Assembly: GCF_014201145.1 (NCBI RefSeq)
Contig: NZ_JACHDP010000001.1
Coordinates: 3,782,001-3,846,000, forward strand
From: Micromonospora parathelypteridis
Lineage (GTDB): Bacteria > Actinomycetota > Actinomycetes > Mycobacteriales > Micromonosporaceae
Reading direction: 5' to 3'
Length of the DNA stretch: 64,000 nt
In this document: piece by piece, positions 22,717 to 39,818 of the stretch
Layout of the letters: each line of letters opens with the position of its first letter
Position numbering within the stretch: the first letter of the stretch is position 1
The notes under the pieces: generated by a model
Seen by the model: only the letters and a program-made list of their open reading frames with translations
The model's database searches: none
What the model was told of the DNA's origin: nothing
Program-made: the position numbers and the translations under genes

Positions 22717-22902
22717 TCAGCCGCGCCGATCCGCGTCGTCGCGTGCGATCGGGGCTTGTGGGGCGGGCGTCACCGCGAACGGGTGGCGCAGCCGGCGCAT
22801 GGCCTCCTCGCTGCCGTCGAAGGTCACCGCGGACCCGTCGAGCCCGTTGGCGTTCGACGTGGCGAGAAACAGGGCGGGTCGAGCGTCATCGTTCGATGTC
22901 AT
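22717..22902 (-). CDS. Small hypothetical protein
   Basis: A 61-residue open frame (MTSNDDARPALFLATSNANG...) with an AGGA ribosome site 8 bases before its ATG. It lies upstream of the sigma factor on the same strand. It contains an evenly spaced hydrophobic strand and an acidic GSAVTFDGSEEAMRRLRHP segment. No family recognised. Kept because translation signals and composition look natural; it could still be a chance frame. Confidence 0.35.
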   Translation of the reverse strand: MTSNDDARPALFLATSNANGLDGSAVTFDGSEEAMRRLRHPFAVTPAPQAPIARDDADRRG

Positions 22903-23218
22903 GCAGGGATTCCTGTCTTCCATGAAGGAGTGGGTCCGGGCCTCGGCAACTCTCGCCGTGCGACCTCGGGACGGTTCGGCGCTCACACTGGCGCCCGATC
23001 AGGGTGCTTGTGCACGGGCGAATGCCCGGCGACACCGACACCCGGCACCATACCCGGCGTCGTCGCCCCCTATGCACCACCGGCGGCCCCGGGTGGCATC
23101 TGACCGACCGCAGTCACACAATTCTGTAATCCGATCCGCTGGTGCAAGTCTCCGATCTTGAGGGCGGTCAGCGCACAGCGTGGGCGCCGCGCGGAAGAGC
23201 ACACAAGGAGTGACACCC
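22903..23218. other. Intergenic region upstream of the ECF-hydrolase fusion gene
   Basis: No gene seen. It should contain the promoter of the fusion gene; AAGGAG at 23205-23210 is its ribosome site. A lower-GC patch (CACACAATTCTGTAATCCG, 23114-23132) is the best place for a promoter. Confidence 0.4.
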
Positions 23219-25105: not shown

Positions 25106-25119
25106 ACAGGGGCGGACGG

Positions 25120-25803
25120 ATGGACGAGCAGATCGTGGCGGGGCGTCCCGGGTCTCGGGCGCGCGTCGGGCGGATCATCGGTGTCGTCGCGACTCTGGTC
25201 GCCACGGCGCTGGCCGTCGGTCTCGCCCAGGGTTGGGGCCGCACCGACCGTGCACCGGAGGCCCCGCCGGCCGCTGGCCCGCCGGCCGCAGCCCCGCCGG
25301 CTGCTCCGGTGACGACCGCGTCCGTGCTGCTCAACAGCACCGACGACGCCTTCATTCAACTGCTGATCCCGATGAACGAGGGCGCGCTCGCGCTGATCGA
25401 CCAGTTCGAGACCCGACCAGCGGACGCGGATCCGTCGCTGCGCGCCCTGCTCGCCGACGTCCGGGTGGCGCATCAGGCCGAGTTGCGGGACCTGCGCGGG
25501 CTGCTGGCCGCAGGCAACGTTGCGGAGCTGAACATCCACGAGGGGCATCAGATGCCCGGCATGGTCACCGACACCAGTCTCGCCGAACTGCGCGCCGCGC
25601 CCGACGCCGAGGTGTCGTCCCGGGCGGCTGCTCTGCTCCGGGCGCACCTCGCACAGACCGTGGTGCTGTGCCGGGGCGAGCAGAACGCGGGCGGAAGCCC
25701 GGAGTTGAAGGCGCTCGCCGGGCGGATCCAGCAGGCGCGGGCTGCCGAGCTGAGCACTCTGGACGGCCGGCCTGGCGCGACCACGGCTGCACCGGTCAAC
25801 TGA
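25120..25803 (+). CDS. DUF305-like membrane-anchored exported protein
   Basis: A 227-residue protein: an N-terminal membrane anchor (VGRIIGVVATLVATALAVGLAQ), a Pro/Ala-rich spacer, and a helical domain like DUF305. The domain has DDAFIQLLIPMNEGALALIDQF and a second half (LLADVRVAHQAELRDLRGLL). A His/Met-rich segment, HEGHQMPGM, could bind metal. DUF305 proteins usually carry HH pairs; here they are mostly lost. The ATG at 25120 follows AGGGG and is 14 bases after the sigma-hydrolase fusion, so they probably share a transcript. Function unknown. Confidence 0.65.
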   Translation: MDEQIVAGRPGSRARVGRIIGVVATLVATALAVGLAQGWGRTDRAPEAPPAAGPPAAAPPAAPVTTASVLLNSTDDAFIQLLIPMNEGALALIDQFETRPADADPSLRALLADVRVAHQAELRDLRGLLAAGNVAELNIHEGHQMPGMVTDTSLAELRAAPDAEVSSRAAALLRAHLAQTVVLCRGEQNAGGSPELKALAGRIQQARAAELSTLDGRPGATTAAPVN

Positions 25804-25827
25804 GCATGCCGCCCAGAAGACCGGCCG

Positions 25828-26526
25828 ATGCGGACGTCTGACCTGCACGCCGACGCCCTAGCCCCGGCCCGGGTGTCCCGTCCCGCCCACCGCGCCGCCA
25901 CGTCGGACCGCGCCCGCCCTATCCGGCCCGCGACGCACCCCACCCGGAGCATGTCGCCGCCCAGCGCGGTCTCCTCGGCACCGGCGTCAGGTTGGCGCGG
26001 TGGCCATCGTCGAGCCGCCGGCCGCGCCACGGTCGTCGCGTCGGTGCTGACGGTCAGCGCCGGGTGGCTGCTCGCGATCCTCGTCGCGCCGCACGTCGCC
26101 CTCTCTCCGGGTGGACGGATGGTTGCGCTCTTCTGCCACCTGACCTGCCTCGTGGTGGGCTTCGGTGCGGTGTTGACGGTGGACTGGTTCAGCCTGCGCT
26201 GGCTGCTGCGCCGGGAACCGCTCGGCACCGTGCTGGTCGCCGCACGCGGCGCGCACCTGCTCATCTGGCTGGGCCTGGTGGGTCTCCTCGCCAGCGGGGC
26301 CGCCCTGGGTCCGGACACGTCGTCCGGGTTGGTCTGGGTCAAGCTGCTCGCGGTGCTGGTGGTCGGCGTCAACGGGCTGTTCCTCGGCCGGGTCCGGGAT
26401 CGACTCGTGGCGGTGGAGGGTCGCCCACCCTGGTCCGTCCTGCTACCCGGTGTCGCCGCCGCCACGATCTCGCAGATCGCCTGGTGGACCGCGACCCTCG
26501 TCGGCTTCCTGAACGCCAACAGTTGA
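25828..26526 (+). CDS. Polytopic membrane protein, function unknown
   Basis: A 232-residue protein with a basic, Pro/Ala-rich N-terminus of about 65 residues and then four to five hydrophobic helices (VVASVLTVSAGWLLAILVAP, FCHLTCLVVGFGAVLTVDWF, LLIWLGLVGLLASGAALG, LLAVLVVGVNGLFLG, GVAAATISQIAWWTATLVGF). No domain is recognised. Start uncertain: ATG 25828 has AGAAG upstream; ATG 25951 gives 191 residues. It is 25 bases after the DUF305-like gene and may be third in that operon. Confidence 0.6.
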   Translation: MRTSDLHADALAPARVSRPAHRAATSDRARPIRPATHPTRSMSPPSAVSSAPASGWRGGHRRAAGRATVVASVLTVSAGWLLAILVAPHVALSPGGRMVALFCHLTCLVVGFGAVLTVDWFSLRWLLRREPLGTVLVAARGAHLLIWLGLVGLLASGAALGPDTSSGLVWVKLLAVLVVGVNGLFLGRVRDRLVAVEGRPPWSVLLPGVAAATISQIAWWTATLVGFLNANS

Positions 26527-26548
26527 CGGCCGCCGGCCGCCTCGGTGG

Positions 26549-27109
26549 TCAGGCCGGCGTCGGGTGTCTCGCCGCGAACCGGGCGCGCGTCAGAAACGCG
26601 AGTTGGGCGAGCTTGTCCGGCATGTCGATCTCCGAGTCGAAGGTGAAGCCCTCGATCTCGAGCCGGCGTAGGGCGAGGTGGTTGCGGACGTCCGGCTCGA
26701 CCACGATCCGTTGGGCGGCCGGGTCACCGAACAGGAATCGGGCGAGGGCGGGGCCGACGGCGTTGGTGAGGCCGCGTGCGATGCGCCGGTCCGGGCTGAG
26801 CAGCAGGTGCATCCCGACGTCTCCGGGCTGCACCGGGTAGCGCTCGCCGACCGGGTCCGCCTCGGGCTGGTAGGTCTGGAACAGGCCAACCGGCTCCGCG
26901 TCCACCATGATCAGGTACGCGTGGTGCGTCGGCAGGCCGTCCACGAAGGTGTAGGTCTCGTGTACCTCTTCGAGGGTGTGCGAGCCCATGCCCCAGAAGG
27001 AGTTGCGGGGGCGGGTGACCCAGTCGTGCAGAAGCGCGGCGTCCCGGTCGGGGTCCACGGTCACCAACGACAACTCACCGAGGCCGGCGATCTTCTCCAG
27101 GTGCGTCAT
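26549..27109 (-). CDS. GNAT acyltransferase of siderophore biosynthesis (IucB/RhbD/MbtK-like)
   Basis: A 186-residue N-acyltransferase. The core includes WVTRPRNSFWGMGSHTLEEVHETYT, a hallmark of siderophore acyltransferases, then HHAYLIMVDAEPVGLFQTYQP, DVGMHLLLSP and AQRIVVEPDVRNHLALRRLEIEGF. Such enzymes acylate N-hydroxylated side-chain amines. Here no N-hydroxylase gene is nearby, so the acceptor may be a plain amine. ATG at 27109 with GAGGA 9 bases upstream. It is divergent from the siderophore-interacting gene and shares the iron box at 27144-27162. Confidence 0.9.
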   Translation of the reverse strand: MTHLEKIAGLGELSLVTVDPDRDAALLHDWVTRPRNSFWGMGSHTLEEVHETYTFVDGLPTHHAYLIMVDAEPVGLFQTYQPEADPVGERYPVQPGDVGMHLLLSPDRRIARGLTNAVGPALARFLFGDPAAQRIVVEPDVRNHLALRRLEIEGFTFDSEIDMPDKLAQLAFLTRARFAARHPTPA

Positions 27110-27143
27110 CGCGAGCTGTCCTCTGTTCCATCGGGGGCGCAAC

Positions 27144-27162
27144 TTAGGTTAACCTCCCCTAA
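27144..27162. promoter_or_regulatory. Iron box 1 (IdeR/DmdR type)
   Basis: TTAGGTTAACCTCCCCTAA matches the 19-bp IdeR/DmdR consensus at about 15 of 19 positions with intact TTAGGTTA and CTAA ends. It lies between the divergent acyltransferase and siderophore-interacting genes and would repress both when iron is plentiful. Confidence 0.85.
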
Positions 27163-27190
27163 CCAAGGATGACCTTACCTGGAGGGGTGC

Positions 27191-27901
27191 GTGAAACGGA
27201 ACTGGGAGGCCCTGGTCCTCAAGGCCATGGGAGGCCGGGACTTTCGGTTGACCGTGTTGAGCACCGAATCGATCGACGGGCACTACCAGCGGCTTCTCCT
27301 CGACGGAGGCGGCCTGCTGGAGGCGTGCGGGGTGCACCCCACGATGTGGATCCGACTGTGGTTCGACAACGACGGCCGGGCACACCAGCGCGCGTACACG
27401 CTGGTGGACCCCGACCCGGCCACCGGCCGGTTCACCCTCGAATTCGCCATCCACGACGGCTGCGCCACCCGCTGGGCCACCGCGGCCCAGGTCGGTGACA
27501 CCATCACCGCGACCGTTCAGGGCAGCGCGTTCGAGCTGCCCGATCCCGCGCCCGAGCACCTCTACCTCGTCGGCGACGCGGCGTCCCTGCCCGCGGTGAA
27601 CAGCCTGCTCGACGCCGGCGCCGACATCCCGGCGACGGTCTGGCTGGAGTACGCGCACGAGGGCGAGAAGGCGCTCGTGCCACGGGCCCGCGCGCACCAC
27701 GACGTCACCTGGGTGCCTCGACGCGACGACGGTCAACACCTCGTCGACACGGTCTGCGCGGCGCTGCCGACCACCGGGGCGGGTCACTACTGGGTGGCCT
27801 GCGAGGCGGCCAGCACCCGCGGCATCACCCGACACATCCGGCGGACGCTCGGCGTCGACAAGGACCGGTTGACCTCCCTCGGCTACTGGAAAGCGGCATG
27901 A
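27191..27901 (+). CDS. Siderophore-interacting protein (FAD-dependent ferric-siderophore reductase)
   Basis: A 236-residue flavoreductase of the ViuB/FscN/SIP family. The N-terminal FAD-binding barrel (HYQRLLLDGGGLLEAC, RAYTLVDPDPATGRFTLEFAIHD) leads to HLYLVGDAASLPAVNSLLDA and a C-terminal NAD(P)H-binding part ending TRHIRRTLGVDKDRLTSLGYW, the signature SIP end. It releases iron from imported ferric siderophore in the cytoplasm. GTG start at 27191 with GGAGG at 27181-27185. It overlaps the next gene (ATGA). Iron box 1 lies just upstream. Confidence 0.93.
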   Translation: MKRNWEALVLKAMGGRDFRLTVLSTESIDGHYQRLLLDGGGLLEACGVHPTMWIRLWFDNDGRAHQRAYTLVDPDPATGRFTLEFAIHDGCATRWATAAQVGDTITATVQGSAFELPDPAPEHLYLVGDAASLPAVNSLLDAGADIPATVWLEYAHEGEKALVPRARAHHDVTWVPRRDDGQHLVDTVCAALPTTGAGHYWVACEAASTRGITRHIRRTLGVDKDRLTSLGYWKAA

Positions 27902-29157
27902 AGGGCCGCCTCGGCACCCTGACCGCCCTGTACGTCACCCAGTACCTCGGCGTCGGCTTCATCACCGTCGGGCTGACCGCCATCCTGCGCGACGGCGGCA
28001 CCTCGCTGGACACTCTGGCGCTGTTGCAGATCGTCGGCCTGATCTGGCCCATCAAGTTCCTCTGGGCGCCGATCCTCGACCGGTACGGCTCGCGGCACCG
28101 CGGCCACTACCGATCCTGGTTGCTCGTGCTCCAGACCGCCCTGGTGCTCGCCCTGCTGGCGCTGCTGCCGTTCTCCAATCCGGCCGACGCGCTCGGCCCG
28201 ATCATCGCCATCTGCGCCGCGTACGTCTTCTTCTCCGCCACGCAGGACATCGCCGTGGACGCCGTCGCCGTCCGGATGCTCGCCGAGTCGGCGCGGGGGA
28301 CCGGCAACGGCATTCAGGTCGCCGCCAGCTACCTCGGCAACCTGCTGGGCGGCGGTGCCTGCGTCCTGGTCTACGACCAGTTCGGGTGGGCGCCGGCGAT
28401 CGGTTTGCTGGCCGCGATGACGGCGGTCGGCCTGCTGGTGGTGTGGCGGTTCCGGGAGCCTCCGCGTACCGATCGGGTGGCCCGGGTCGGCACGGCCTAC
28501 CGGGCGCTGCTGTCGGTGTTCGGCCAGCCGGGCTGCCGGTGGTGGACGTTCGGCGTGGTGCCACTGGTCTACGTCGGTGCGGGGATGGCGTACGCCCTGG
28601 TGACGCCGGCTCTGGTCGACGCGGGGTGGTCGTTGGGTCGGATCGGTGTCGTCACGGGCGTGGTGACCAGTGCCCCGGCCATCGTGGCGGGTCTGGTCGC
28701 GGGGCTCGGCATCGGGCGGTTCGGGCGTAGTGGCGTGCTCGTGGTCGGCGGCGTGGCCCTCACGGTGTCGACGCTGCTGCTGTTGCCGCTGATGAACGGC
28801 CGCGCGCCGCTGGGTACGACGGTTGCCGCGCTCTGCTGCTTCATGGTGGCCTACACCATCGCCAACGTCGTGCTCTACACGGTGAACATGGACTACTCGC
28901 GGCCCGACACCGGCGGCACCGACTTCACCGTCCTGTCGTCGTTCGGCCTGGTCTGCTCGTTCGTGGCCGCTTCCATCGGTCTCGCGGCCGCCGACCAGGT
29001 CGGCTACCCGGCCGTCGCGGTCGCCGCCATCGTGCTGGTGGCCGCCGGCGTCGCCCTCGGCCTCGCCCACCAGCGGCGATTCCCGCACCAGCCTGGTCCG
29101 GTCGCCGGTTCGGCGGCAGAGCCACCGACGGTGGACGGCGTTAAGGCTGCGGCGTGA
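27898..29157 (+). CDS. MFS transporter, AmpG-like, in the siderophore locus
   Basis: A 419-residue, 12-TM major facilitator. It opens LGTLTALYVTQYLGVGFITVGL and has LIWPIKFLWAPILDRYGSRHRGHYRSWL, a signature of AmpG-like and siderophore-uptake MFS carriers. ATQDIAVDAVAVRML in TM4 is also typical. Its place between a reductase and an exporter suggests uptake of the ferric siderophore. No ABC importer or binding protein is in the window. It overlaps its neighbours by 4 bases on both sides. Direction of transport is inferred. Confidence 0.88.
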   Translation: MKGRLGTLTALYVTQYLGVGFITVGLTAILRDGGTSLDTLALLQIVGLIWPIKFLWAPILDRYGSRHRGHYRSWLLVLQTALVLALLALLPFSNPADALGPIIAICAAYVFFSATQDIAVDAVAVRMLAESARGTGNGIQVAASYLGNLLGGGACVLVYDQFGWAPAIGLLAAMTAVGLLVVWRFREPPRTDRVARVGTAYRALLSVFGQPGCRWWTFGVVPLVYVGAGMAYALVTPALVDAGWSLGRIGVVTGVVTSAPAIVAGLVAGLGIGRFGRSGVLVVGGVALTVSTLLLLPLMNGRAPLGTTVAALCCFMVAYTIANVVLYTVNMDYSRPDTGGTDFTVLSSFGLVCSFVAASIGLAAADQVGYPAVAVAAIVLVAAGVALGLAHQRRFPHQPGPVAGSAAEPPTVDGVKAAA

Positions 29158-30656
29158 CCGCGGTTCAACCAGCCGCGGACACCACGACATCGGCACGACT
29201 GCCGCAGCGGTGGCTCATCCTGGCCGTGCTGTGCGTCGCGCAGCTCGTCGTGGTGCTGGACAACACAGTGCTGACCGTGGCGGTGCCGGTGCTCACCACC
29301 GAGTTGGGCGCCAGCACCGCCGAGGTGCAATGGATGATCAACGCGTACGCGTTGGTGCTGTCCGGGTTGCTGCTCACCGCCGGCAGTGCCGCCGACCGGT
29401 ACGGCCGGCGTCGGATGCTGCTCGCCGGGCTCGTCCTGTTCGGGCTCGGTTCGTTGGCCGCCGGGCTCGCCAGCACCAGCGGGCAACTGATCGCCGCCCG
29501 GGCCGGAATGGGCGTTGGCGGTGCGCTGCTGGTCACCTCGACGCTCGCGGTCGCGATGCAGGTCTTCGACGCCGCCGAGCGGTCCCGGGCGATCGGCATC
29601 TGGGCTGCGACCAGCGCGTTGGGCTTCGCCATCGGGCCACCGATCGGCGGCACCATCCTCGCGCATCTGCCGTGGGGCGCCATCTTCGGGATGAACGTTC
29701 CCATCGTGCTGATCTGCCTGCTCGTCGGTCGTGCGCTGATACCCGAGTCCCGTGGCCCGGCCGGTGGCCGCCTCGACGTGGTGGGCGCGGCGCTCTCCAC
29801 CGCGGGCCTGACCGCGGTCGTGTGGGCGATCATCTCCGGGCCGGAGCGGGGGTGGGCGTCGGTCGAGGTGCTCGGCGCGGCGGTTGTCGGCGTACTCCTG
29901 CTCGGGTTCTTCGTCGGCTGGGAGCGGCGGATCACCCACCCCATGCTGGACATGCACTTCTTCCGGGACCGGCGCTTCGTCGGCGCGATCTCCGGGGTCG
30001 TGCTGATCACCTTCGGCGCGACCGGCGCGCTGTTCCTGCTCACCCAGCATCTGCAGTTCGTTCGCGGTTACCCCGCCTGGGAAGCCGGCCTGCGGATGGC
30101 GCCCTTCGCGCTGTCCATCGTGCTGCTCAACGTCAGCGGCGTCGTCGCGATGGTGATCCGCCGACTCGGCCTGGCGGCCGCCATCGTCGTCGGCATGACG
30201 CTGCTCGCGGCTGGTCTCGCGGTGGTCACCCTCTCTCCGTCGGAGGGGTACGGGGTGCTGCTGGGTGGGCTGCTCGTCATGGGTGTCGGTTGCGCGCTGG
30301 CCAACCCGGCCATCGTCGAGGCCGTGATGAGCGCGATCCCGGCGGAGAAGGCCGGTGCGGGCGCGGGTGTCGACGGCACCATGACCGAGGTTGGCAGCAG
30401 CCTCGGCATCGCGGTGCTCGGCGCCGTGCTGAACGCCCGGTTCGCCGCCCTGCTCCCGGCAGGGCTGGCCGGTGCCGGATCGTTCCCCGCCGCCCTTGCC
30501 GCCGCGCGTGGAGGGGCCGAACGGGAGGCCGTCACCGTGGCCTTCGCCTCGGCGCTGGAGACGGGACAGTTGGTGGGCGCGGGCGCGGTTCTGGTGGGTG
30601 GCCTCGTCGCCGCCGGCTTGCTGCACCGGGCAGACCGCCCCATACTCGCCCAATAA
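29154..30656 (+). CDS. MFS exporter, DHA2 family (14 TM), probable siderophore exporter
   Basis: A 500-residue proton-coupled exporter. Motif A is ADRYGRRRMLLAGLVLFGLG and motif C-like WAATSALGFAIGPPIGGTILA. Its position in an iron-box operon with the SIP and MFS genes suggests it exports the apo-siderophore. GTG start at 29154 overlaps the preceding stop. Its TAA stop (30654-30656) is the first part of iron box 2, so the export and biosynthesis operons are packed tightly. Confidence 0.9.
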   Translation: MTAVQPAADTTTSARLPQRWLILAVLCVAQLVVVLDNTVLTVAVPVLTTELGASTAEVQWMINAYALVLSGLLLTAGSAADRYGRRRMLLAGLVLFGLGSLAAGLASTSGQLIAARAGMGVGGALLVTSTLAVAMQVFDAAERSRAIGIWAATSALGFAIGPPIGGTILAHLPWGAIFGMNVPIVLICLLVGRALIPESRGPAGGRLDVVGAALSTAGLTAVVWAIISGPERGWASVEVLGAAVVGVLLLGFFVGWERRITHPMLDMHFFRDRRFVGAISGVVLITFGATGALFLLTQHLQFVRGYPAWEAGLRMAPFALSIVLLNVSGVVAMVIRRLGLAAAIVVGMTLLAAGLAVVTLSPSEGYGVLLGGLLVMGVGCALANPAIVEAVMSAIPAEKAGAGAGVDGTMTEVGSSLGIAVLGAVLNARFAALLPAGLAGAGSFPAALAAARGGAEREAVTVAFASALETGQLVGAGAVLVGGLVAAGLLHRADRPILAQ

Positions 30657-30672
30657 GGGTAGGCTACCCTAA
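30654..30672 (+). promoter_or_regulatory. Iron box 2 (IdeR/DmdR type)
   Basis: TAAGGGTAGGCTACCCTAA matches the IdeR/DmdR consensus at about 16 of 19 positions, including the central TAGGCTA. It overlaps the TAA stop of the exporter and lies 32 bases before the ATG of the ATP-grasp gene, where it would control the biosynthetic genes separately from iron box 1. Confidence 0.88.
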
Positions 30673-30704
30673 TTGCGACAATCGTCGTCGACGACGGAGG
30701 CGGT

Positions 30705-31874
30705 ATGCGGCTGTACCTGACCGCGCTCAACCCCACCGACGCCGTCCTGGAGGGGTTTCTCCCGGCGGCGGCGGCGCTCGGGCTGTCGGCCACCGTGCTG
30801 ACCGACCGGCCAGCGGAATGGCCGTCGGACGCGCCCGTGGTGCGGTGCGCGGTCCGGGACGCGACTGCGGTGGTCGCGGCGACGGCACCAACCCGACCGG
30901 TGGCGCTACTGTCCAATAGCGACCACCTTCAGGAGGCCACCGCGATCGCCGCACGGAAGCTCGGCCTGCCCGGCAAGGATCCCGACGCCGCCCGTCTCTG
31001 CAAGGACAAGGCGGCGGCCCGCCGGGCGATCGCCGCTGCCGGGCTCGATCTGGTACGCACCATCACCATCGACCCCGGCATCGCACCGGAGGTGCCGGTC
31101 GAGATGTTCCCGGCGGTGGTCAAACCCCGCGAGGGGGTGGCCAGCGAGGACGCGTACCTGGTGGCAGACCACTCAGAACTGGTCGCCCGGGTCACCGAGA
31201 TCCGTGGCCGGCGGCCGGACGTGGCCCTGGTGGTCGAGGAGTATCTCGCCGGGGAGCTGCGAACCTTCGAGACCCTCGGTGACGGCACCGCGCTGGCCTC
31301 CCTCGGCGGATGGCGCACCAGCCTCGGTCCGCCGCCGACCTTCACCGAGGAGAGCCTGCACTGGTCGCCTCCGGCGGAGTCGGCGAGCACCCAGCTGCGG
31401 GCGCGGCTCGACGCGCTCGGGGTCGGCTTCGGCGCCTGCCACACCGAGTACGTCATCGCCGACGGCCGGGTCCGGCTGATCGAGGTCAACTACCGCCTCA
31501 TCGGCGACCGGATGGACCTGATCCTCGCTGAACTGCTCGGCGTGCCGCTGTTCGAACACGTCATCCGGCTGCACCTCGGCGAGCCACTGGCCGCCCTCAG
31601 CCTGCCCACCACCGTCGACCGGTACGCCCAGGTCGAGTACGTCTGCGCGGAAACCTCGGGCCGGCTCACCGCCGCACCGGGCCGGCTGGACACCGTGCAC
31701 GGCGATGTCCGGCTGGGCTGCCGACCGCTGCGTGCGGTGGGCCGCGTCGCCGAGCACACCGGGACGAACCGCGACTACCTCGCCGTGCTGCACGCGATCG
31801 GCCCTGACCAGGCCACCGTCCGGCAGTCGATGGCCGCTTTCCGCAGCGACCTGCAGTGGACCATCGTCGAGTGA
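30705..31874 (+). CDS. ATP-grasp ligase of the NIS siderophore locus
   Basis: A 389-residue ATP-grasp enzyme. Marks are ALLSNSDHLQEATAIAARKLGLPGKD, the ATP-binding Lys in CKDKAAARRAIAAAGL and FPAVVKPREGVASEDAY, VVEEYLAGELRTFETL, and metal-ligand acidic residues in VRLIEVNYRLIGDR. The family forms amide bonds through acyl phosphates, so it may add an amino acid or polyamine to the siderophore, beyond the two NIS synthetases. The ATG at 30705 follows GGAGG by 4 bases. The next gene overlaps by 4 bases (GTGA). Specific substrates unknown. Confidence 0.85.
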   Translation: MRLYLTALNPTDAVLEGFLPAAAALGLSATVLTDRPAEWPSDAPVVRCAVRDATAVVAATAPTRPVALLSNSDHLQEATAIAARKLGLPGKDPDAARLCKDKAAARRAIAAAGLDLVRTITIDPGIAPEVPVEMFPAVVKPREGVASEDAYLVADHSELVARVTEIRGRRPDVALVVEEYLAGELRTFETLGDGTALASLGGWRTSLGPPPTFTEESLHWSPPAESASTQLRARLDALGVGFGACHTEYVIADGRVRLIEVNYRLIGDRMDLILAELLGVPLFEHVIRLHLGEPLAALSLPTTVDRYAQVEYVCAETSGRLTAAPGRLDTVHGDVRLGCRPLRAVGRVAEHTGTNRDYLAVLHAIGPDQATVRQSMAAFRSDLQWTIVE

Positions 31875-33526
31875 CCGACGACTGCGAGCGGGAGGTGTTC
31901 GGCCGGGTGCTCGACGCCCTGCTCCGCGAGGATCACCTCGGCCTCCTCAGCACCGGCCGACTGGACGGGCCAGACCTCAGCACCGGCCGACCGGACGGGC
32001 CCGACTGGTGGCAGGTGCCGCGCCCCGATGGCCTGCTGCGCATCCCGGTCCGAGCGGACGGCTTCCAGCAGACCCTGCGCAGCACGGCGCCGATGGTGCT
32101 GGTGCTCGCCAACGGCACCACCCACCGCGCGGACACCCTGGAAGGGCTGTTGACGGTGCTCGCCCCGCACGGCAACGAAGAGGCCGAGGCCGGCTGGCGG
32201 GACTTCGGCACCGAGTGCCGCGCCGACCTGCGCGCCCGGCGGCTCGCAGCCCGCAACCGAGCACGGGTGCTCGCCGAGGTGTCCAGCGCACGCGCGATCA
32301 CCCCGACCGGTCTGCCGGCGGCGCTCCTGGACGACGTGCTCGCCGCCCACCACGGCCACCCGGTCTACCCCACCGACCGGTGCCGGCACGGTCTCAGCGA
32401 CGACGAACTGCTCCGGTACGCCCCGGAGCACGCCCCGCGTTTCGCGCTGCGGTGGTACGCCGTACCTGCCGAGGGCGTCCGGCTCACCGGTGAACTCCCG
32501 TCGTGGTGGCCGCGTGCACCGCGACCGGATCAGCTTCTGTTGCCGGCGCATCCGATCACTGCGGCACGCGACGCGCTACCGGTGACGGATCTGCCCGTGA
32601 TCTCCGCGCGACCCACCCTCTCCATGCGGACCGTGGCGCTCGACGACGACCCGTACCTGCACCTCAAACTGCCGCTGCCCACCGCGAGCCTCGGCGCCCG
32701 CAACCGACGCACGCTGCAGCCGGGCTCGCTCGCCGACGGCGCGGCCGTCGCCGCGCTGCTCGACCGGATCGCCAGCGCGGAACCCGCCTTCGCCGGCCGG
32801 ATCCGGCATGCCGACGAGAGCACCTGGGCGCACGTCGACGGCGACGAGCGGCGCAGCTTCCTGCTGCGCCGATTCCCGCGCGACCTGGCCGGCGTCCAGG
32901 TGGTGCCGGTCGCGGCCCTCGCCGCGGCCGACCCGGTCGCCGGCACGGTCCTCGAACGGATCAGCCCCGAGCGGCCCGGGACGCTGCTGGAGTCCTACCT
33001 GGACCTGCTGCTCGACTGGCACGTCTTCCTGTGGCTACGCCACGGAATCGCCCTTGAGGCGCACCCGCAGAACATCCACCTGCTGGTACACCCCGACGGC
33101 ACGGTCGGCCTGCTCTACAAGGACAACGACGGTGCCCGACTCGATGCGCGGCACGGCGGCCCGGGCGGGCTCGTCCTGGACGACGACCGGATGTGGGCGC
33201 GCGAGCCGCAGGAGCTGGCCGACGTGTTCATCACCATCACCCTGCACCTGGCCGCCGCCGCGCCGCTGATCGCCCTGGCCGCCCGAGGGCTGCCCGTGCC
33301 GACACCCGCCGAAGCGCTGGCACCCCGCCTCGCCGCCGCCCGTGACCGTTGGGGCGACGGCCCCGCGGTACGAACCTTCACCGAGCGGGTCCTGCGGGCC
33401 GCCCACCTGCCCATCAAGGCGATGCTCACCGCCGGCACCCTGTTACCCAAACAGCGGCTGGGCTGCGCCGACATCAACAAGTACTACCTGCGTACCGGCC
33501 CGAACTACCTCCGGGAGACACGATGA
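31871..33526 (+). CDS. IucA/IucC-family NIS synthetase 1
   Basis: A 551-residue carboxylate-amine ligase. The adenylation motif is GHPVYPTDRCRHGL (about residue 160), where the family norm is GHPxHPxxKxRxG; the second His and the Lys are replaced by Tyr and Arg. ALRWYAVPAE and LLLPAHPITAARDALP follow. The C-terminal FhuF-like part reads IALEAHPQNIHLLV and GLLYKDNDGARL. The changed motif suggests altered nucleotide or carboxylate binding, or a partner role. A 30-bp duplication lies near the N-terminus. GTG start at 31871 overlaps the ATP-grasp stop; the next gene overlaps by ATGA. Confidence 0.92.
   Translation: MTDDCEREVFGRVLDALLREDHLGLLSTGRLDGPDLSTGRPDGPDWWQVPRPDGLLRIPVRADGFQQTLRSTAPMVLVLANGTTHRADTLEGLLTVLAPHGNEEAEAGWRDFGTECRADLRARRLAARNRARVLAEVSSARAITPTGLPAALLDDVLAAHHGHPVYPTDRCRHGLSDDELLRYAPEHAPRFALRWYAVPAEGVRLTGELPSWWPRAPRPDQLLLPAHPITAARDALPVTDLPVISARPTLSMRTVALDDDPYLHLKLPLPTASLGARNRRTLQPGSLADGAAVAALLDRIASAEPAFAGRIRHADESTWAHVDGDERRSFLLRRFPRDLAGVQVVPVAALAAADPVAGTVLERISPERPGTLLESYLDLLLDWHVFLWLRHGIALEAHPQNIHLLVHPDGTVGLLYKDNDGARLDARHGGPGGLVLDDDRMWAREPQELADVFITITLHLAAAAPLIALAARGLPVPTPAEALAPRLAAARDRWGDGPAVRTFTERVLRAAHLPIKAMLTAGTLLPKQRLGCADINKYYLRTGPNYLRETR
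31946..32005 (+). repeat. 30-bp in-frame tandem duplication in NIS synthetase 1
   Basis: Units 31946-31975 and 31976-32005 share 28 of 30 bases and encode LSTGRLDGPD and LSTGRPDGPD in succession. It looks like a recent slippage event adding 10 residues in a surface loop before the core. Confidence 0.9.
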
Positions 33527-35121
33527 CGTGCGCACAGTTGCGCTCCCGGCCGGCCAGCGCCACCGGCAAGCTCGCCGACCTGGCCGCCGCCCACGCCGTC
33601 TTCGGCTGCCTGATCCGCGAACTTGCCCTGCCGGACGGCACCCCGAGCGTGGTCGACAATGCCGTCCGTGTGCCGCTGCGGCACCTCGGCGTCACGTTGC
33701 GCTGCGTCGTCGCCCGATCCTCACCGCTCGGCGCGCACCGCTACGCCGGCCCGGTGCAGCGGCTGACCGACGACGGACGGTGGGAGGACCTGGACGCGGA
33801 CGGCCTGGCCAGCCTGGTCGCGGCGGAACTCACCACCCGTACCGGCCTGGCGAACGACGAGTTCATCGAGCAGGTCCGGGCCAGCCGGGACACCGTGGCC
33901 CGGCTACTTGCCGAGCGACCGGCCGACGATCCGACCCCCACCGGTGATCCCGCCATCGACGCGTACGTCGACTCCGAGCAGTCACTGGTCTTCGGCCACC
34001 CGCACCACCCCACCCCGAAATGGCGCAGCGGTGACCCGGACGGTTGGCGGGCGTACGCGCCGGAGCTGCGCACGTCGTTCCGGCTGCACTGGCTCGCCGT
34101 ACCGGACGAGCTTGTCGCCGGTGCCGGACCGTTCGATCCGCTCGTGGCTGCTCTCGACCCGCCACGACCCCCGGTCGGGCACCGCGTCCTGCCGGTGCAT
34201 CCCTGGCAGCTCTCGCTCCTCCCACCGGCGCACCCACGGCTGCGCGATCTGGGGGCGGCCGGTGTGCCGGTACGGCCGACGGCGAGCGTCCGCACCCTCT
34301 ACGCCCCCGACGCCGACCTGTTCGTCAAGACCAGCCTGCACGTCCGCATCACCAACTGCCTGCGCAAGAACGCCCGGTACGAACTCGCGGGCGCGGTCGC
34401 CCTGACCGACCTGCTGGCCGGGGTGCCGATGCCGGACGGGGTGGGGCTGCTCGCCGAGCCCGCCTACCGCACTGTCGACGTGCCCGGTCCGGACGAGGCG
34501 TACGGGACGATCCTGCGCAGCGGTCTACGCCCGCACCTGCGTCCCGGGGACACCCCGCTGCTGGCGGCGGCGCTGGCCGCCACGCCGCTGCTGACACCGG
34601 ACCCGGTGGCCTGGTGGCGCGCGTACGTCGGGCTGCTGGTGCCGGCGGTGCTGCGCTGCTGGCTCAGCCACGGGGTCGTGCACGAGGCGCACCTGCAGAA
34701 CGTGGTCGTCGTGCTCGACCGGAACCGCCACCCGGTACGCATGCTGCTGCGCGATCTGGAGGGGGTCAAGCTCGACACCGAGCGGTGGGCCACCTGGCCG
34801 GACGGCATCCCACCGCAGGTTCGCTACAGCCCTCGGGACGCCCGCCGCCGGATCGTCTACTGCCTGTTCGTCAATCACCTCGGCGGCATCTGCGGGGCCC
34901 TCGCCGATGCGCGACCGGGCATCGAGCAGCGACTGTGGCGCGAGTTGCGGGCCGTCGTCGAGGCGGTGGCCGCCGACCTCGACGATCCGCCCGAGCTGCG
35001 CGCGCTGCTGCACGGTGAGCCGCTGGTGGCCAAGGCGAACCTGCTGGTCCGATGGCGGCGTGACGCGGACCGGGCCGCACCGTTCGTGCCGGTGCCCAAC
35101 CCGTTGGGCCGGCCACGGTGA
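33523..35121 (+). CDS. IucA/IucC-family NIS synthetase 2
   Basis: A 532-residue ligase with intact family motifs: GHPHHPTPKWRSGD (about residue 157), SFRLHWLAVPDELV, LPVHPWQLSLLPPAHP, TASVRTLYAPDADLFVKTSL with ATP/substrate-binding residues, then HGVVHEAHLQNVVVVL and LLRDLEGVKLDTERW. It condenses a citrate- or dicarboxylate-type unit with an amine or alcohol. It shares fold but little sequence with synthetase 1, suggesting two different steps. ATG at 33523 overlaps the previous stop (ATGA) and its TGA overlaps the decarboxylase GTG. Confidence 0.93.
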   Translation: MTCAQLRSRPASATGKLADLAAAHAVFGCLIRELALPDGTPSVVDNAVRVPLRHLGVTLRCVVARSSPLGAHRYAGPVQRLTDDGRWEDLDADGLASLVAAELTTRTGLANDEFIEQVRASRDTVARLLAERPADDPTPTGDPAIDAYVDSEQSLVFGHPHHPTPKWRSGDPDGWRAYAPELRTSFRLHWLAVPDELVAGAGPFDPLVAALDPPRPPVGHRVLPVHPWQLSLLPPAHPRLRDLGAAGVPVRPTASVRTLYAPDADLFVKTSLHVRITNCLRKNARYELAGAVALTDLLAGVPMPDGVGLLAEPAYRTVDVPGPDEAYGTILRSGLRPHLRPGDTPLLAAALAATPLLTPDPVAWWRAYVGLLVPAVLRCWLSHGVVHEAHLQNVVVVLDRNRHPVRMLLRDLEGVKLDTERWATWPDGIPPQVRYSPRDARRRIVYCLFVNHLGGICGALADARPGIEQRLWRELRAVVEAVAADLDDPPELRALLHGEPLVAKANLLVRWRRDADRAAPFVPVPNPLGRPR

Positions 35122-36263
35122 CGAGACCGGTCTACGTCCACGACCTCGACGCGCTGACCGCGCAGGCCACAGCCATCCGGGCGGCGCTGCCCCGGCAGGT
35201 CGAGCTGCTCTACGCGGTCAAGGCCAACCCGGACCCCGGCGTGCTGCGTACCCTCGCTCCGATCGTCGACGGGTTCGAGGCCGCGAGCCGTGGCGAACTG
35301 CGGAGGTTGGCCGAGGTGCTGCCGGGCCGGCCCCCGGCCGCGTACGCCGGGCCGGGCAAGACCGACGCGGACCTCGCCGCCGCCCTCGCTGCCGGCGTGC
35401 GCCGCATCCACGTCGAGTCGCCCGCCGAGCTTCGGCGACTCGGCGCGCTGGCCACCGCCTCGGGCCGGTCCGCCCAGGTGCTGCTGCGGGTGAACCTGCC
35501 GGTCGCCGCGCCCGGCGCGAGCCTGCTCATGGGTGGCGGACCCAGCCCGTTCGGCATGGACCCGGCCGACGTGGTCGAGTGCGTCCGCCGCCCGCCCGCA
35601 GGCATCGACGTACGCGGAATCCACGCCCACCTGGCCAGCGGGTTGGACGCGCCGCTCGCCGCCACGGTCGCCGCCGCCGTGGTTCGCTGGGCCGCCGCGG
35701 AGATGGGCGCCGTCGAGGTCGACGTCGGCGGAGGCATGGCCGTGGACTACGCCGACCCGGCGGCGCGATTCGACTGGGCCGACTACGGCCGGGCGCTGGC
35801 CGGCGTCCTCGAAGCGCACCCGGGGGTGCGGCTGCGCATCGAGCCGGGCCGGTCGGTGACCGCCTACTGCGGGGCGTACCTCACCGAGGTCATCGACGTG
35901 AAGCGCTCCTACGGCGAGTGGTTCGTGGTGGTCGCCGGCGGCACCCACCACCTGCGCACACCGGCGGCGAAGGGGCACCCGCAGCCGTTCACCGTGCACC
36001 GGCGCCGCGGCCCTGACGGCCCGCACACCGACGGAGGGCCGGTCACTGTGGTCGGGCAGCTCTGCACCCCGAAGGACGTGTTGTCCCGATCGACCACCGC
36101 CGGGCCGATCGGCGTGGGTGACGTGCTGGCCTTCGCCATGGCCGGCGCGTACGCCTGGAACATCAGCCACCGCGACTTCCTGCTGCACGAACCGCCGCTC
36201 TTTCGCACCGGTGACCCGGAGGAACTGGCCGGTGAGTGGGCCGCCCGACCGCCGGGATCGTGA
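35118..36263 (+). CDS. PLP-dependent fold-III amino acid decarboxylase
   Basis: A 381-residue decarboxylase of the LysA/ODC class. The PLP Lys is in LLYAVKANPDPGVL (about residue 35). FEAASRGELRRLAE, GPGKTDADLAAA, IHAHLASGLDAPL, DVGGGMAVDYADP and EPGRSVTAYCGAYLTEV follow, and CTPKDVLSRS completes the second active-site loop. In related NIS loci such an enzyme decarboxylates a citryl-diamino-acid intermediate or supplies a diamine (as SbnH does for staphyloferrin B). Its place after both synthetases favours the former. GTG start overlaps the upstream stop. Last gene of the biosynthetic operon. Confidence 0.9.
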   Translation: MTRPVYVHDLDALTAQATAIRAALPRQVELLYAVKANPDPGVLRTLAPIVDGFEAASRGELRRLAEVLPGRPPAAYAGPGKTDADLAAALAAGVRRIHVESPAELRRLGALATASGRSAQVLLRVNLPVAAPGASLLMGGGPSPFGMDPADVVECVRRPPAGIDVRGIHAHLASGLDAPLAATVAAAVVRWAAAEMGAVEVDVGGGMAVDYADPAARFDWADYGRALAGVLEAHPGVRLRIEPGRSVTAYCGAYLTEVIDVKRSYGEWFVVVAGGTHHLRTPAAKGHPQPFTVHRRRGPDGPHTDGGPVTVVGQLCTPKDVLSRSTTAGPIGVGDVLAFAMAGAYAWNISHRDFLLHEPPLFRTGDPEELAGEWAARPPGS

Positions 36264-36379
36264 CCTCGGTCCGCTTCGTTCCACAATGGAATGCAGGGGC
36301 AAAATCTGTGGCGGCCGTCGATACGATGACGCCGACCGGCGCCGACACAGGCTCCGTCATGGGGGAGGTCAACGTCCAG

Positions 36380-39232
36380 ATGAAACGCATCGGTTCAGCG
36401 ATGCTGGCAATGGCGGTCGGTGTCACCACCGCCGTCCTGGCCACCGGCCAGCCGGCCCTCGCCGCCACCTCGGCCAATTCACCTCTGTCGAGCTGGGCGT
36501 ATCTCGACTCGCAGAGCCCGACGAAGAAGTTCGTCAACCCGAGCGTCGCGCCGCCCGTCGGCACACTTGTCGACAGCGCAAACAAGGCACACACCTACCG
36601 CTCCTACTTCACCTACGACCTGACCCAGCTCAAGGGCGCGGTGGTGCACAACTCGTACCTCTACACCAATGAGGACACGGTCACCGACTGCTCTGCCGCC
36701 GCGACGATCGAGGTGTGGCGTACCTCCGCGGTCAAGTCCGGGACGACCTGGAACAACCCGCCCGCCGAGCTTGAGAAGTTGATTTCCGCCGACCGCGGCC
36801 CGGGTTCCATCTACTGCCCCGGCTTCCTGGGCATCGACATGGTGTCGACCCTCAACGCCGCGCTCAGCCGGCGCGACAAGTCGATCACCATCGAATACCG
36901 GATCACGGCAGCCCAGGAGACGGACCCGCGCGCCGGCCGCACCTTTCAGCAGCCGACGCTGAGCTCCACCTCGAACTACCCGCCGACTGTGACCGACCCG
37001 CGCCTCGAGGCTCCGGACCGGCCGTGCGGCACGGTCACCAAGCCGTCGCCAGCGGCGGCGTCAACCCTGTTCAGGGCTACCGCGAACGACCCCGACGAGG
37101 ACGACTACCCGTCGATCCTCTACGCGATCTGGCCGGTCGACCATCCGGACCAGCGCCGTGAGTTCTACAGCTACAACTTCGTCACGGACCTCAGTCAATA
37201 CACCCACGGTGAGCTCCTCGCCTGGCAGGCCCGCGCCAGTGACTACTACGACGCCGGCCCGTGGAGCAAGGTCTGCTACATCGTCATGGACAAGGCGGCA
37301 CCGGCCAACCCGCCGGCGGTCTCCTCGAAGCTCTACCCCGAGGGCGGAACGCCCGGCGGCGGCAGCGGTCTCAAGGGCAAGTTCCGCCTCGACGCGGACG
37401 GCGACCGCGACGTGGTCGCCTTCGCGTGGCGTGACTCGATGGGTGACTCCGGTCAGATCAAGGCGCGTCGCCCGGGCGGTTCGGCCATCCTCGAATACAC
37501 CCCGAAGCGGGACTGGTTGGAGGAGCTCTACGTCAACTCGATCGATGCGGCGGGCAACCGTGGGCCGGAGAGGACCTACCGGTTCTGGATCGCCGACACC
37601 GCGCCGAGCGCGCAGATCGAGCTGGGTGGGGTCGGGCTGCCGAGCACGATCACGCTCTCCGCGCCGAAGCCCGAGACGACCGCCTTCGGCTATCAGATCA
37701 AGGGTGCCCCTGAGTCCCGGGTGCCGGCCGTCGACGGTAAGGCGACCGGGCAGCTCACCTTCACCGAGGTCGGCGAGGTCGAGGTCGTCGTCAGCAGCTA
37801 CGCGAAGAACAAACTGATCGGGCAGGACACCCTGCGGATCATGGTCACCGACGCCCCCGGGGTCGAGTCCGCCGAGTTCAACTTCGACAGCGAGCCGATC
37901 GCCGGCAAGACCGGTTCGTTCACGTTCACGCCGCGCATCACCGACGTCGTTTCCTACGAGTACGCCCTGGACGACACCCTGCAGACCGTGCCGGCGGCGG
38001 CGGACGACACCGCCGTGGTGCCGTGGACGGCGACCGCGGGATGGCACACCATGGTCGTACGGTCGGTGCAGGCGGACGGCTCGAAGTCCTTGGAGACCTA
38101 CTACCAGTTCAGCGTCCTCGATCCGGTCCCGTCCGTGTTCTCGCCGACACTGGAACACCTGACGCGGATCGACGGCGTCGGCCTGCCAGTGGAGTTCTAT
38201 CTGAACAGCCAGCTGCCGAACGTGACCGGCTACGTCTACCGGTTCGACGGCGGCCCGGAAACCATCGTCGACTCCTACGGTGCCAGCGTGACGATCAACG
38301 TCACGCCGGTGCACACCGGCGACAACACGCTGCTCGTCCGGGCGCTGCTGGCTGACGGCACCCGGTCGCCCGAGAAGAGCTTCACCTGGCAGCCGTTCGA
38401 GGCACCGGTCATCGTCACCGACCCGCCGAACGGTGGCGCGGCCGCTCAGCCGATGACGCTGACGTTCCGTTCGGCGCTACCGGACACCAAGGAGTTCCGC
38501 TATTCGCTGGACTTCGGCGAATACCAGGTCATCGCGGCGGGGCCGGACGGCACGGCGACCGTGTCGTTCACACCGCAGTGGGATGGCTGGTTCTCGGCCC
38601 GGGTCACCGGTATCGCTCAGGACGGCACGACGTCGCCGGAACGCGAGATGACCGTCCCGGTCCGCGACACCCGGGTTTCGGTGTGGAGCCAGTACAACGA
38701 GTGGAACCCGAGGGGCGGCATCGGCGTGCCCGGCGACTTCGCCCTCAGCACCTCCTGGACGCCGGAGGTGGTGGAGTACCGCTACCGGCTCAACGATGGC
38801 CCGGAGCTGAGCGCACCCAGAGGGGACAGCTGGAACACCCTGGTCACGCTCGTGCCGGACCGTAACGGGCTCAACACCCTCACCGTGCGGGGTCGCACCT
38901 CGGACGGCCGGCTCTCCCCGGTCACCGAATACGCGTTCCAGGTCGGCACCGCGCCGCACGTCTTCTCCGAGACGTACCCGCGGGACACGCCCGGCGGGGG
39001 AGTCGGCGTCGAAGGCCGCTTCGAGTTCAGTGGCGGCACGGCCGGGATCACGTCCTTCGAGTACACGATCGGCGGCACCGCGGGCACGGTCGCCGCCGAC
39101 GCGCAGGGCCGTGCGTCGATCACCTGGACCCCGACCGAGGCGACCAGCCTCTACCTGGTCGTCAAGGGGCACAAGGCGGACGGCAGCGTGACCGACGAGG
39201 CCGGGTACTACATCTCGGTTAATCCGGGCTGA
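36380..39232 (+). CDS. Large secreted protein with DNRLRE-like N-domain and Ig-like repeats
   Basis: A 950-residue exported protein. MKRIGSAMLAMAVGVTTAVLATGQPALA is a signal peptide. Residues 30-230 resemble the DNRLRE-type beta-sandwich of secreted actinobacterial proteins (SWAYLDSQSPTK, YLYTNEDTVTDCSAAATIEVWR). The rest is at least six ~95-residue Ig-like repeats, each starting near a G(V/I)G(L/V)P-like turn and containing YxYxLDxG (GVGLPVEFYLNSQLPNV, GGIGVPGDFALSTSW, GGGVGVEGRFEFSGG). No membrane anchor or catalytic motif. ATG at 36380 chosen for GGGGGAGG 11 bases upstream and signal-peptide start. A terminator follows. Confidence 0.85.
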   Translation: MKRIGSAMLAMAVGVTTAVLATGQPALAATSANSPLSSWAYLDSQSPTKKFVNPSVAPPVGTLVDSANKAHTYRSYFTYDLTQLKGAVVHNSYLYTNEDTVTDCSAAATIEVWRTSAVKSGTTWNNPPAELEKLISADRGPGSIYCPGFLGIDMVSTLNAALSRRDKSITIEYRITAAQETDPRAGRTFQQPTLSSTSNYPPTVTDPRLEAPDRPCGTVTKPSPAAASTLFRATANDPDEDDYPSILYAIWPVDHPDQRREFYSYNFVTDLSQYTHGELLAWQARASDYYDAGPWSKVCYIVMDKAAPANPPAVSSKLYPEGGTPGGGSGLKGKFRLDADGDRDVVAFAWRDSMGDSGQIKARRPGGSAILEYTPKRDWLEELYVNSIDAAGNRGPERTYRFWIADTAPSAQIELGGVGLPSTITLSAPKPETTAFGYQIKGAPESRVPAVDGKATGQLTFTEVGEVEVVVSSYAKNKLIGQDTLRIMVTDAPGVESAEFNFDSEPIAGKTGSFTFTPRITDVVSYEYALDDTLQTVPAAADDTAVVPWTATAGWHTMVVRSVQADGSKSLETYYQFSVLDPVPSVFSPTLEHLTRIDGVGLPVEFYLNSQLPNVTGYVYRFDGGPETIVDSYGASVTINVTPVHTGDNTLLVRALLADGTRSPEKSFTWQPFEAPVIVTDPPNGGAAAQPMTLTFRSALPDTKEFRYSLDFGEYQVIAAGPDGTATVSFTPQWDGWFSARVTGIAQDGTTSPEREMTVPVRDTRVSVWSQYNEWNPRGGIGVPGDFALSTSWTPEVVEYRYRLNDGPELSAPRGDSWNTLVTLVPDRNGLNTLTVRGRTSDGRLSPVTEYAFQVGTAPHVFSETYPRDTPGGGVGVEGRFEFSGGTAGITSFEYTIGGTAGTVAADAQGRASITWTPTEATSLYLVVKGHKADGSVTDEAGYYISVNPG

Positions 39233-39270
39233 TCGATTCCCGGTGCGTTTAGCTCCACCATTGATCGGAT

Positions 39271-39307
39271 GACGCCCCGCAGGCCGGGTAACCGCCTGCG
39301 GGGCGTC
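39271..39307 (+). terminator. Hairpin terminator after the secreted repeat protein
   Basis: A perfect 13-bp stem GACGCCCCGCAGG (39271-39283) pairs with CCTGCGGGGCGTC (39295-39307) around an 11-base loop, 39 bases after the stop codon of the secreted protein. Confidence 0.85.
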
Positions 39308-39461
39308 ACCGTCTCGACGCACTCCGGTCTCCGCGTCGGTGCGACGGACGGCTGACGCGGCGGCGGCGCACGTCGACGAGCGGTCGGAGCGGATTTCTGG
39401 CACCGTTGGTACGGCGCGCAGTGTCGCCGAGCTGCCGGTGACGCCGTATCGAGGGGGTTTC

Positions 39462-39812
39462 GTGGACTTCACGCTGTCGACGCGGCAGGGGCGGATCGGC
39501 ACAGTGGTGGAGGTCGCTGGCGACCTGGACATGAGCACCACACCCGAACTGCGTGACCAGCTGCGCAAGCTGGTGGAGAGCGGCGCCCAGGTGGTGGTGG
39601 TCGACCTGACCGGGGTCGGATTCATGGACTCCAGTGGCCTCGGCGTGCTCGTGGTCGCCTACAAGGACCTGCGGGAACGGAACGGTCGGCTCGCCCTGGC
39701 CGGAGTCAGTGAGCCGGTGCGTACGGTGTTGTCGATCACCTCGGTGGACCGGGTCATCGGCATCTTCGAGACGGTGCACGACGCCGAGGAGGCATCCGCC
39801 GCGGTGTCGTGA
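39462..39812 (+). CDS. STAS-domain anti-sigma factor antagonist
   Basis: A 116-residue anti-anti-sigma factor. TVVEVAGDLDMSTTPELRDQL and VVVVDLTGVGFMDSSGLGVLVVAYKDLRE are the STAS core; the phospho-acceptor Ser is in MDSSGLG. LALAGVSEPVRTVLSITSVDRVIGIFET ends the domain. When unphosphorylated it would bind an RsbW-type anti-sigma and free a SigB/SigF factor. GTG start at 39462, 6 bases after GAGGGGG; the longer frame upstream is Arg/Ala-rich and not STAS-like. It is convergent with, and 6 bases from, the PP2C phosphatase at 39819, its likely activator. Confidence 0.93.
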   Translation: MDFTLSTRQGRIGTVVEVAGDLDMSTTPELRDQLRKLVESGAQVVVVDLTGVGFMDSSGLGVLVVAYKDLRERNGRLALAGVSEPVRTVLSITSVDRVIGIFETVHDAEEASAAVS

Positions 39813-39818
39813 TCACCG

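Follow-up and report, generated by a model that had tools for sequence, protein, structure and literature searches.

The region examined lies in a 64,000-nucleotide stretch of the Micromonospora parathelypteridis genome, referred to here as the window (C1:3782001-3846000, inside one 7.01-Mb contig). Positions 26549 to 36263 of the window hold a siderophore locus of eight named genes, all of which are intact reading frames in profile and open reading frame (ORF) scans. The inventory agrees with that of the first-pass annotation of this DNA: two IucA/IucC synthetases of the nonribosomal-peptide-synthetase-independent siderophore (NIS) type, a GNAT acyltransferase, a pyridoxal phosphate (PLP) decarboxylase, an ATP-grasp ligase, a siderophore-interacting protein (SIP) reductase, and two MFS carriers. 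The genes appear to form two transcription units, and an iron box accompanies each. Unit 1 (26549-30656) holds the GNAT, SIP, and MFS genes, and unit 2 (30654-36263) holds the ATP-grasp ligase, the two synthetases (NIS1 and NIS2), and the decarboxylase. Neighbouring frames share four bases at each of five junctions (SIP/MFS at 27898, MFS/MFS at 29154, ATP-grasp/NIS1 at 31871, NIS1/NIS2 at 33523, and NIS2/decarboxylase at 35118), so each gene set looks like one operon. The features are listed in Table 1.

Table 1. Genes and iron boxes of the siderophore locus (window coordinates).
Feature	Position	Strand	Remarks
GNAT acyltransferase, DesH-like	26549..27109	-	PF13523, 167 bits; start ATG 27109, TTG 27142 possible
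Iron box, IdeR/DmdR type	27144..27162	.	3 mismatches; between GNAT and SIP genes
SIP siderophore-interacting flavin reductase	27191..27901	+	PF04954, PF08021
MFS carrier, RhtX/FptX-like, probable ferri-siderophore importer	27898..29157	+	TIGR02718
MFS carrier, DHA2-like, probable siderophore exporter	29154..30656	+	TIGR00711
Iron box upstream of pvsA-like gene	30654..30672	.	Pattern match
pvsA-like ATP-grasp ligase	30705..31874	+	Reciprocal best match to PvsA
pvsB-like NIS synthetase, NIS1	31871..33526	+	GTG start 31871, ORF could begin 31856; IucA/IucC
pvsD-like NIS synthetase, NIS2, AcsD-like	33523..35121	+	Reciprocal best match to PvsD; predicted O-citryl-L-serine synthetase
pvsE-like PLP decarboxylase, Orn/DAP type	35118..36263	+	101 bits; reciprocal best match to PvsE

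The two IucA/IucC synthetases score 92 and 145 bits in the profile scan. NIS2 probably starts at ATG 33523; the ORF list gives 33349 and the gene finder preferred 33538. The Pfam match of the ATP-grasp ligase is poor: PF18130 reaches 20.3 bits, short of its cut-off of 27. The protein matches solved L-amino-acid ligases with an E value of 1e-8, and the ATP-grasp call stands despite the Pfam score because of these structures and the PvsA match described below.

A search of plasmid records with the ATP-grasp protein returned 114 records. The twelve top-ranked include Pantoea soli, two Vibrio, Cupriavidus necator, and Rhodococcus, and the Pantoea soli match is annotated as 'siderophore biosynthesis protein PvsA'. 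Five reference loci of the pvs type (Pantoea soli, Vibrio fortis, Vibrio sp. THAF190c, Cupriavidus necator, and Rhodococcus) were compared with the window by BLAST in both directions. All five read ATP-grasp, IucA/IucC, MFS, IucA/IucC, and type III PLP enzyme, which is the pvsABCDE arrangement described for vibrioferrin in passages of PMC5577590 and PMC5812596. PvsA is taken as the ATP-grasp member on the basis of the Pantoea annotation and its position. Each of the four enzymes of unit 2 is the reciprocal best match of one Pvs protein in all five reference loci: the ATP-grasp ligase of PvsA (33-53% identity), NIS1 of PvsB (30-45%), NIS2 of PvsD (27-48%), and the decarboxylase of PvsE (42-53%). 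The gene order in the window is A-B-D-E, as in the pvs-type loci except for the exporter. No PvsC orthologue was found at the locus in this comparison. The DHA2-like carrier matches PvsC only weakly, over about 100 residues, with E values of 0.004 forward and 4e-4 reverse, and it scores 218 bits against TIGR00711, where the cut-off is 230.

The synthetase assignments were also examined in a tree of 40 NIS synthetase rows. NIS1 falls with PvsB (support 100/100) and NIS2 falls with PvsD (support 93/88). Both groups stand apart from the genome's own DesD, from Phaeobacter and Halorussus synthetases, and from one Sinorhizobium pSymA synthetase that we take to be RhbC. At an E value of 1e-5, NIS1 matches 12 of 72,556 plasmid records, and these twelve accessions are the twelve top-ranked in the ATP-grasp search. 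In alignments of six rows, K140, E260, and N262 of the ATP-grasp ligase are among 78 invariant residues, and K35 of the decarboxylase, the presumed PLP lysine, is invariant.

Unit 2 is very probably a vibrioferrin-type pvsA-B-D-E core with vibrioferrin or a close analogue as its product, and unit 1 a separate transport and accessory set. The first-pass annotation had matched the locus to no named siderophore and suggested a new product; that claim falls with the four reciprocal best matches in conserved order. The gene order is a known one, bar the exporter.

The best solved relatives of NIS2 are AcsD structures (E value 7e-64), followed by IucA (E value 2e-16). AcsD esterifies citrate with L-serine, and PMC3323832 reports mutation of E442, R501, and K563 and cites R305 and H444 from earlier work. 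AcsD R305, E442, H444, R501, and K563 correspond to R281, E388, H390, R443, and K504 of NIS2 in an alignment that was counted by hand and checked letter by letter, and all five are invariant in six PvsD rows. From the likeness to AcsD and the five retained residues, NIS2 is predicted to make O-citryl-L-serine and the decarboxylase to supply the ethanolamine part. In the proposed pathway, NIS2 (PvsD) would activate citrate and esterify it with L-serine. The PLP decarboxylase (PvsE) would convert the serine part to ethanolamine, before or after ester formation. The ATP-grasp ligase (PvsA) and NIS1 (PvsB) would then join the remaining parts, which in vibrioferrin are alanine and 2-ketoglutarate. 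The product would be a carboxylate siderophore, vibrioferrin or a close analogue, and an N-hydroxylase would be unnecessary. On this view the citrate ester would come from PvsD and not from PvsA, an order that differs from the reviews cited below. These substrates, the identity of the product, and the siderophore carried by the transporters are all predictions from sequence.

Relatives of the core were collected from named genomes, and the best 80 of 171 were compared. They span Micromonospora, Salinispora, Verrucosispora, Streptomyces, Nonomuraea, Planobispora, Streptosporangium, and other genera. With the window's ATP-grasp ligase, a protein of Micromonospora luteifusca shares 94% identity and that of M. 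arborensis 95%. The genes A-B-D-E occur in order on one strand in 67 of the 80 loci. Five loci are ended by contig edges, and in L013 a disruption follows the beginning of NIS1. Seven loci (L037, L042, L046, L047, L054, L066, and L075; at about 9000-13550) contain A-B-D with no PvsE match in the 19 kb examined. If no PvsE lies elsewhere in those seven genomes, the carboxylate of serine would be retained in the product. An even draw of 345 genomes across the class, with five first-look candidates scored per genome, yielded pvsA in 23.

Two relatives show additional features. An apparent remnant of the MFS exporter (38 residues at 92% identity) lies 5' of pvsA in Salinispora pacifica (L029:8366-8941). 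In a Micromonospora locus (L021:1068-8753), the pvs-type core adjoins a 2084-residue frame and a gene for a chorismate-binding enzyme; these neighbours are possibly a second, aryl-capped siderophore cluster.

Iron boxes were scanned with a consensus pattern of the IdeR/DmdR type. The window contains two matches, and 100 shuffles contain none. Genome-wide, 14 matches with at most three mismatches fall on ten sites, and a reversed-pattern control gives none. With at most four mismatches allowed, the 200 bp in front of pvsA contain a box in 67 of 79 testable loci and those in front of SIP in 23 of 24, compared with 67 of 4000 random stretches. Near relatives are each counted singly in these locus counts, which are hence not independent. 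Both units are predicted to be iron-regulated.

The genes of unit 1 have a distribution of their own. The importer scores 154 bits against TIGR02718, below the cut-off of 356, and is 28% identical to a frame near the NIS genes of S. meliloti pSymA; the record is unannotated and the frame is presumably RhtX. Matches to desABCD separate SIP from the exporter-pvs run in Micromonospora thermarum (L024) and M. endolithica (L028), and the importer is beside SIP in L028 only. Three other Micromonospora loci (L106, L110, and L112) read GNAT, SIP, importer, desA-B-C-D, and exporter, with pvs afterwards present or absent. A further three (L108, L113, and L116) contain unit 1 with neither core in the stretch examined. 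The des genes of L106 carry the DesA (PF00282), DesB (PF13434), DesC (PF13523), and DesD (PF04183) domains; des labels outside L106 are by similarity to the des cluster of M. parathelypteridis itself.

Neighbours were counted in 151 Micromonospora genomes within 15 kb on one contig, and broken contigs make these counts lower bounds. The 151 genomes include 61 with pvsA, 65 with the importer, 89 with GNAT (at least 65% identity), and 130 with desD. The 65 importers have pvsA nearby in 33 genomes, desD in 27, both in 5, and neither in 10. For the 89 GNATs the numbers are 36, 37, 5, and 21, respectively. In 23 of the 61 genomes with pvsA, neither a GNAT nor an importer nor desD lies near it. Unit 1 is probably a module distinct from the pvs core: a DesH-like acyltransferase, a SIP reductase, a putative importer, and a putative exporter, which in some other Micromonospora surround desABCD. 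No transporter was recognized in the frames scanned beside the pvs cores of L036 (Nonomuraea), L035 (Streptomyces), and L021; many of these frames are spurious, and L021 contributed only two. A FhuF-type protein adjoins the pvs core of L035.

L106 has two further features. At 6751-9414 it encodes an 887-residue penicillin-amidase and GNAT protein of the DesGH type near desABCD, and continuous frames of this kind also occur in L111 and L112. An RhtX-like MFS carrier lies directly 5' of desA.

The window GNAT was compared with the desferrioxamine genes. It is 70-78% identical to four GNATs that are adjacent or fused to an acylase, 50% identical to the GNAT beside the penicillin-acylase gene of its own genome, and 40-43% identical to DesC. 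In a tree of 17 GNAT rows, which include no Streptomyces DesH, the window copy and its kin split from DesC at a fork with support of 89/92; the position of the window copy inside its acylase-associated group is weakly supported. In G008, the GNAT is the C-terminal part of an 887-residue protein with an N-terminal penicillin-amidase domain (PF01804, 482 bits). The acylase-GNAT frame is continuous in G008, G017, and G018, exists as separate neighbouring frames in G006 and G115, and in G023 the acylase part adjoins SIP. The acylase part was not found in the examined stretches of G039, G027, G119, and G045, nor in the window. A DesG remnant beside the window GNAT was considered and dropped, with nothing above chance (E value 0.88).

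The genome's own desABCD lies at C1:153-158 kb, 3.65 Mb from the locus along the contig. In front of it lies a binding-protein gene (C1:157996-159027), and some 50 bp upstream of that gene is an iron box (159077). An acylase and GNAT pair lies at C1:162-165 kb, with the penicillin-amidase family gene at C1:162130. Excerpts of PMC12161575 on S. coelicolor state that desferrioxamine B falls strongly when desG or desH is lost, that DesG and DesH are proposed to turn a succinylated precursor into an acetylated one, that desJ, a desF paralogue, adjoins desGH in a DmdR1-controlled locus, and that desGH fusions are known in S. atratus and two Micrococcus strains. The S. coelicolor desJGH locus likewise has a SIP-type reductase gene beside a DesC-like acyltransferase gene and an iron box; the window locus differs in lacking a desG acylase and in having two MFS carriers.

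The lone window GNAT is most plausibly another DesH-like enzyme, the second of the genome, and probably stands outside the vibrioferrin-type core. It would most likely acetylate N-hydroxycadaverine produced by DesA and DesB. No flavin N-monooxygenase lies within the window, in agreement with the first-pass annotation, and a hydroxylase hidden there is ruled out: the genome has three PF13434 matches, all elsewhere. The distant N-monooxygenase for which that annotation proposed a genome search is present as DesB, the genome's clear N-hydroxylase, in a des cluster with the same kind of iron box, and DesB is most likely the missed hydroxylase. What the annotation had named as refuting its reading is thus present to a large extent: a gene order in common but for the exporter, with vibrioferrin as a putative product, and a monooxygenase under a box of this kind. 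An acyltransferase without a hydroxylase had been seen as the odd feature of the locus; this pattern probably dissolves when unit 1, which adjoins des genes in other species, is paired with a DesB encoded elsewhere. The single pathway of the earlier reading is probably two siderophore modules.

Several points weigh against a vibrioferrin core that is separate from unit 1. The five reference loci are of the pvs type by gene order and annotation and are not proven producers. An unrelated exporter takes the place of PvsC, and the scan of neighbouring genes revealed no ABC uptake set. NIS1 and NIS2 are only 27-30% identical to the Vibrio PvsB and PvsD, so different building blocks may be used. The PvsD group has less than the usual support of 95. 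The window GNAT has no DesG or acylase partner at the locus (best match in 20001-40000, E value 0.88). The importer and pvsA co-occur above chance (35 genomes with both, Fisher p = 0.004, uncorrected for relatedness), so unit 1 may also serve the pvs product. Finally, two reviews, one of them PMC5577590, name PvsA as the enzyme for the ester, with PvsB and PvsD forming the amides, in the passages concerned, and one of the two adds that the specific functions of the vibrioferrin enzymes are untested.

A tentative variant, compatible with the vibrioferrin-type assignment, is that the core makes a new analogue, with PvsA or PvsB using a different amino acid or keto acid. Identity to the Vibrio and Pantoea PvsA, PvsB, and PvsD is only 27-37%, the actinobacterial PvsB and PvsD rows stand apart from the proteobacterial rows in the NIS tree, and the pathway varies, as seven of the 80 loci show no pvsE beside A-B-D. 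Against this, the serine and citrate residues of NIS2 are intact, and PvsE is the best conserved of the four proteins relative to the two Vibrio loci (42-43%).

It is doubtful that the GNAT, SIP, and both MFS carriers belong to the same pathway, with the acyltransferase decorating the pvs product and the carriers moving it. Unit 1 directly adjoins the core and has its own iron box, the GNAT is within 15 kb of pvsA in 36 of 61 pvsA genomes, and the importer co-occurs with pvsA more often than chance predicts. However, 50 genomes have a GNAT orthologue but no pvsA, the GNAT lies near desD in 37 of 89 genomes, pvsA stands apart from GNAT, importer, and desD alike in 23 of its 61 genomes, and the GNAT sides with putative DesH-type, acylase-associated enzymes rather than DesC. 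Given its distribution, the GNAT is unlikely to be the acyltransferase of the pvs product. A related and similarly improbable proposal is that this Micromonospora clade recruited the DesH-like acyltransferase and carriers for its pvs core. The outcome would be an acylated analogue of vibrioferrin, or common secretion and uptake for the carboxylate siderophore and the chemically unrelated desferrioxamine.

The suggestion of a staphyloferrin-like locus with an extra ATP-grasp amide bond is barely credible: a carboxylate type, a PLP decarboxylase, and NIS synthetases fit it, and it was rejected on the synthetase models and gene content. Staphyloferrin B uses three Sbn synthetases together with SbnA and SbnB. 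The window has two NIS genes only, with no SbnA/SbnB-like domain, third synthetase, or SbnG-like gene among the neighbouring frames scanned. The SbnC and SbnF models score 31-35 bits against cut-offs of 700-900, and all four biosynthetic proteins match Pvs proteins reciprocally. The first-pass reading of a carboxylate-type locus is retained without this likeness, and its product would need no hydroxylase. Its statement that aminotransferase and citrate synthase genes are lacking agrees with the frames scanned at 21548-44650, where neither was found; some frames there and the rest of the genome were left unsearched.

Among known systems, the closest to the vibrioferrin-type core of unit 2 is pvsABCDE of Vibrio parahaemolyticus, compared here through the Vibrio fortis and Vibrio sp. 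THAF190c operons, with PvsA, PvsB, PvsD, and PvsE orthologues in the same order. The window differs in having no PvsC between B and D, an unrelated MFS carrier upstream, and an IdeR/DmdR-type box; the neighbouring frames scanned include neither a TonB receptor nor an ABC uptake set. The achromobactin system has other partner enzymes and no PvsA; its AcsD aligns with NIS2 over two long stretches with the five residues kept. Hydroxamate loci of the aerobactin and rhizobactin type differ from the window locus, which has no N-hydroxylase. PvsC is treated as accessory in a line of PMC5812596, which writes 'vibrioferrin (encoded by pvsABDE)'. The xss operon of Xanthomonas is of the vibrioferrin type according to part of PMC5130282. 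In Streptomyces avermitilis, an extract of PMC9394381 names avs as a 'Vibrioferrin-like polyhydroxycarboxylate siderophore'; this actinobacterial carboxylate cluster has three 'siderophore synthetase components' and a DAP-type (diaminopimelate) decarboxylase, and it is likened to the window by description only.

Other sources touch on the subject in sections of their text. An antiSMASH region in a Streptomyces draft genome is labelled 'vibrioferrin 18%' (PMC7385001). A Micromonospora pan-genome finds NI-siderophore genes mostly accessory, with no products named in the sections concerned (PMC12915310). In an antiSMASH table for Micromonospora, NI-siderophore regions are labelled FW0622, putrebactin/avaroferrin, or peucechelin (10%), and none vibrioferrin; the present cluster may or may not be among these regions (PMC11965639). 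PMC8304108, PMC12093950, and PMC9225448 use vibrioferrin for Vibrio, metagenome functions, or heterologous expression. Literature searches gave no report tying vibrioferrin to a Micromonospora locus, or describing this locus or its product in the genus, among the matches listed from the library searched.

With this assignment, a second NIS cluster that is widespread in Micromonospora (61 of the 151 genomes searched have a pvsA-like gene) gains a concrete product class, and the incomplete look of the locus is explained. A gene that adjoins a siderophore core is not necessarily part of its pathway. In Streptomyces, clusters have already been called vibrioferrin-like, and the Micromonospora locus adds another member of the pvs type. 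The locus is strange at first sight and yet looks mostly ordinary, a soil actinobacterium's form of a known citrate-based pathway next to transport genes found with another, unrelated siderophore in related species.

Two frames flank the locus. A 641-residue frame at 23180-25105 carries a sigma-70 region 2 domain close to the start and ends in a glycosyl hydrolase catalytic core, and is apparently a sigma factor fused to a hydrolase domain. A long frame at 36236-39232, directly 3' of the decarboxylase, has weak carbohydrate-binding and Ig-like matches below the cut-off, and appears in only three of the 80 relative loci (L004, L006, and L011).

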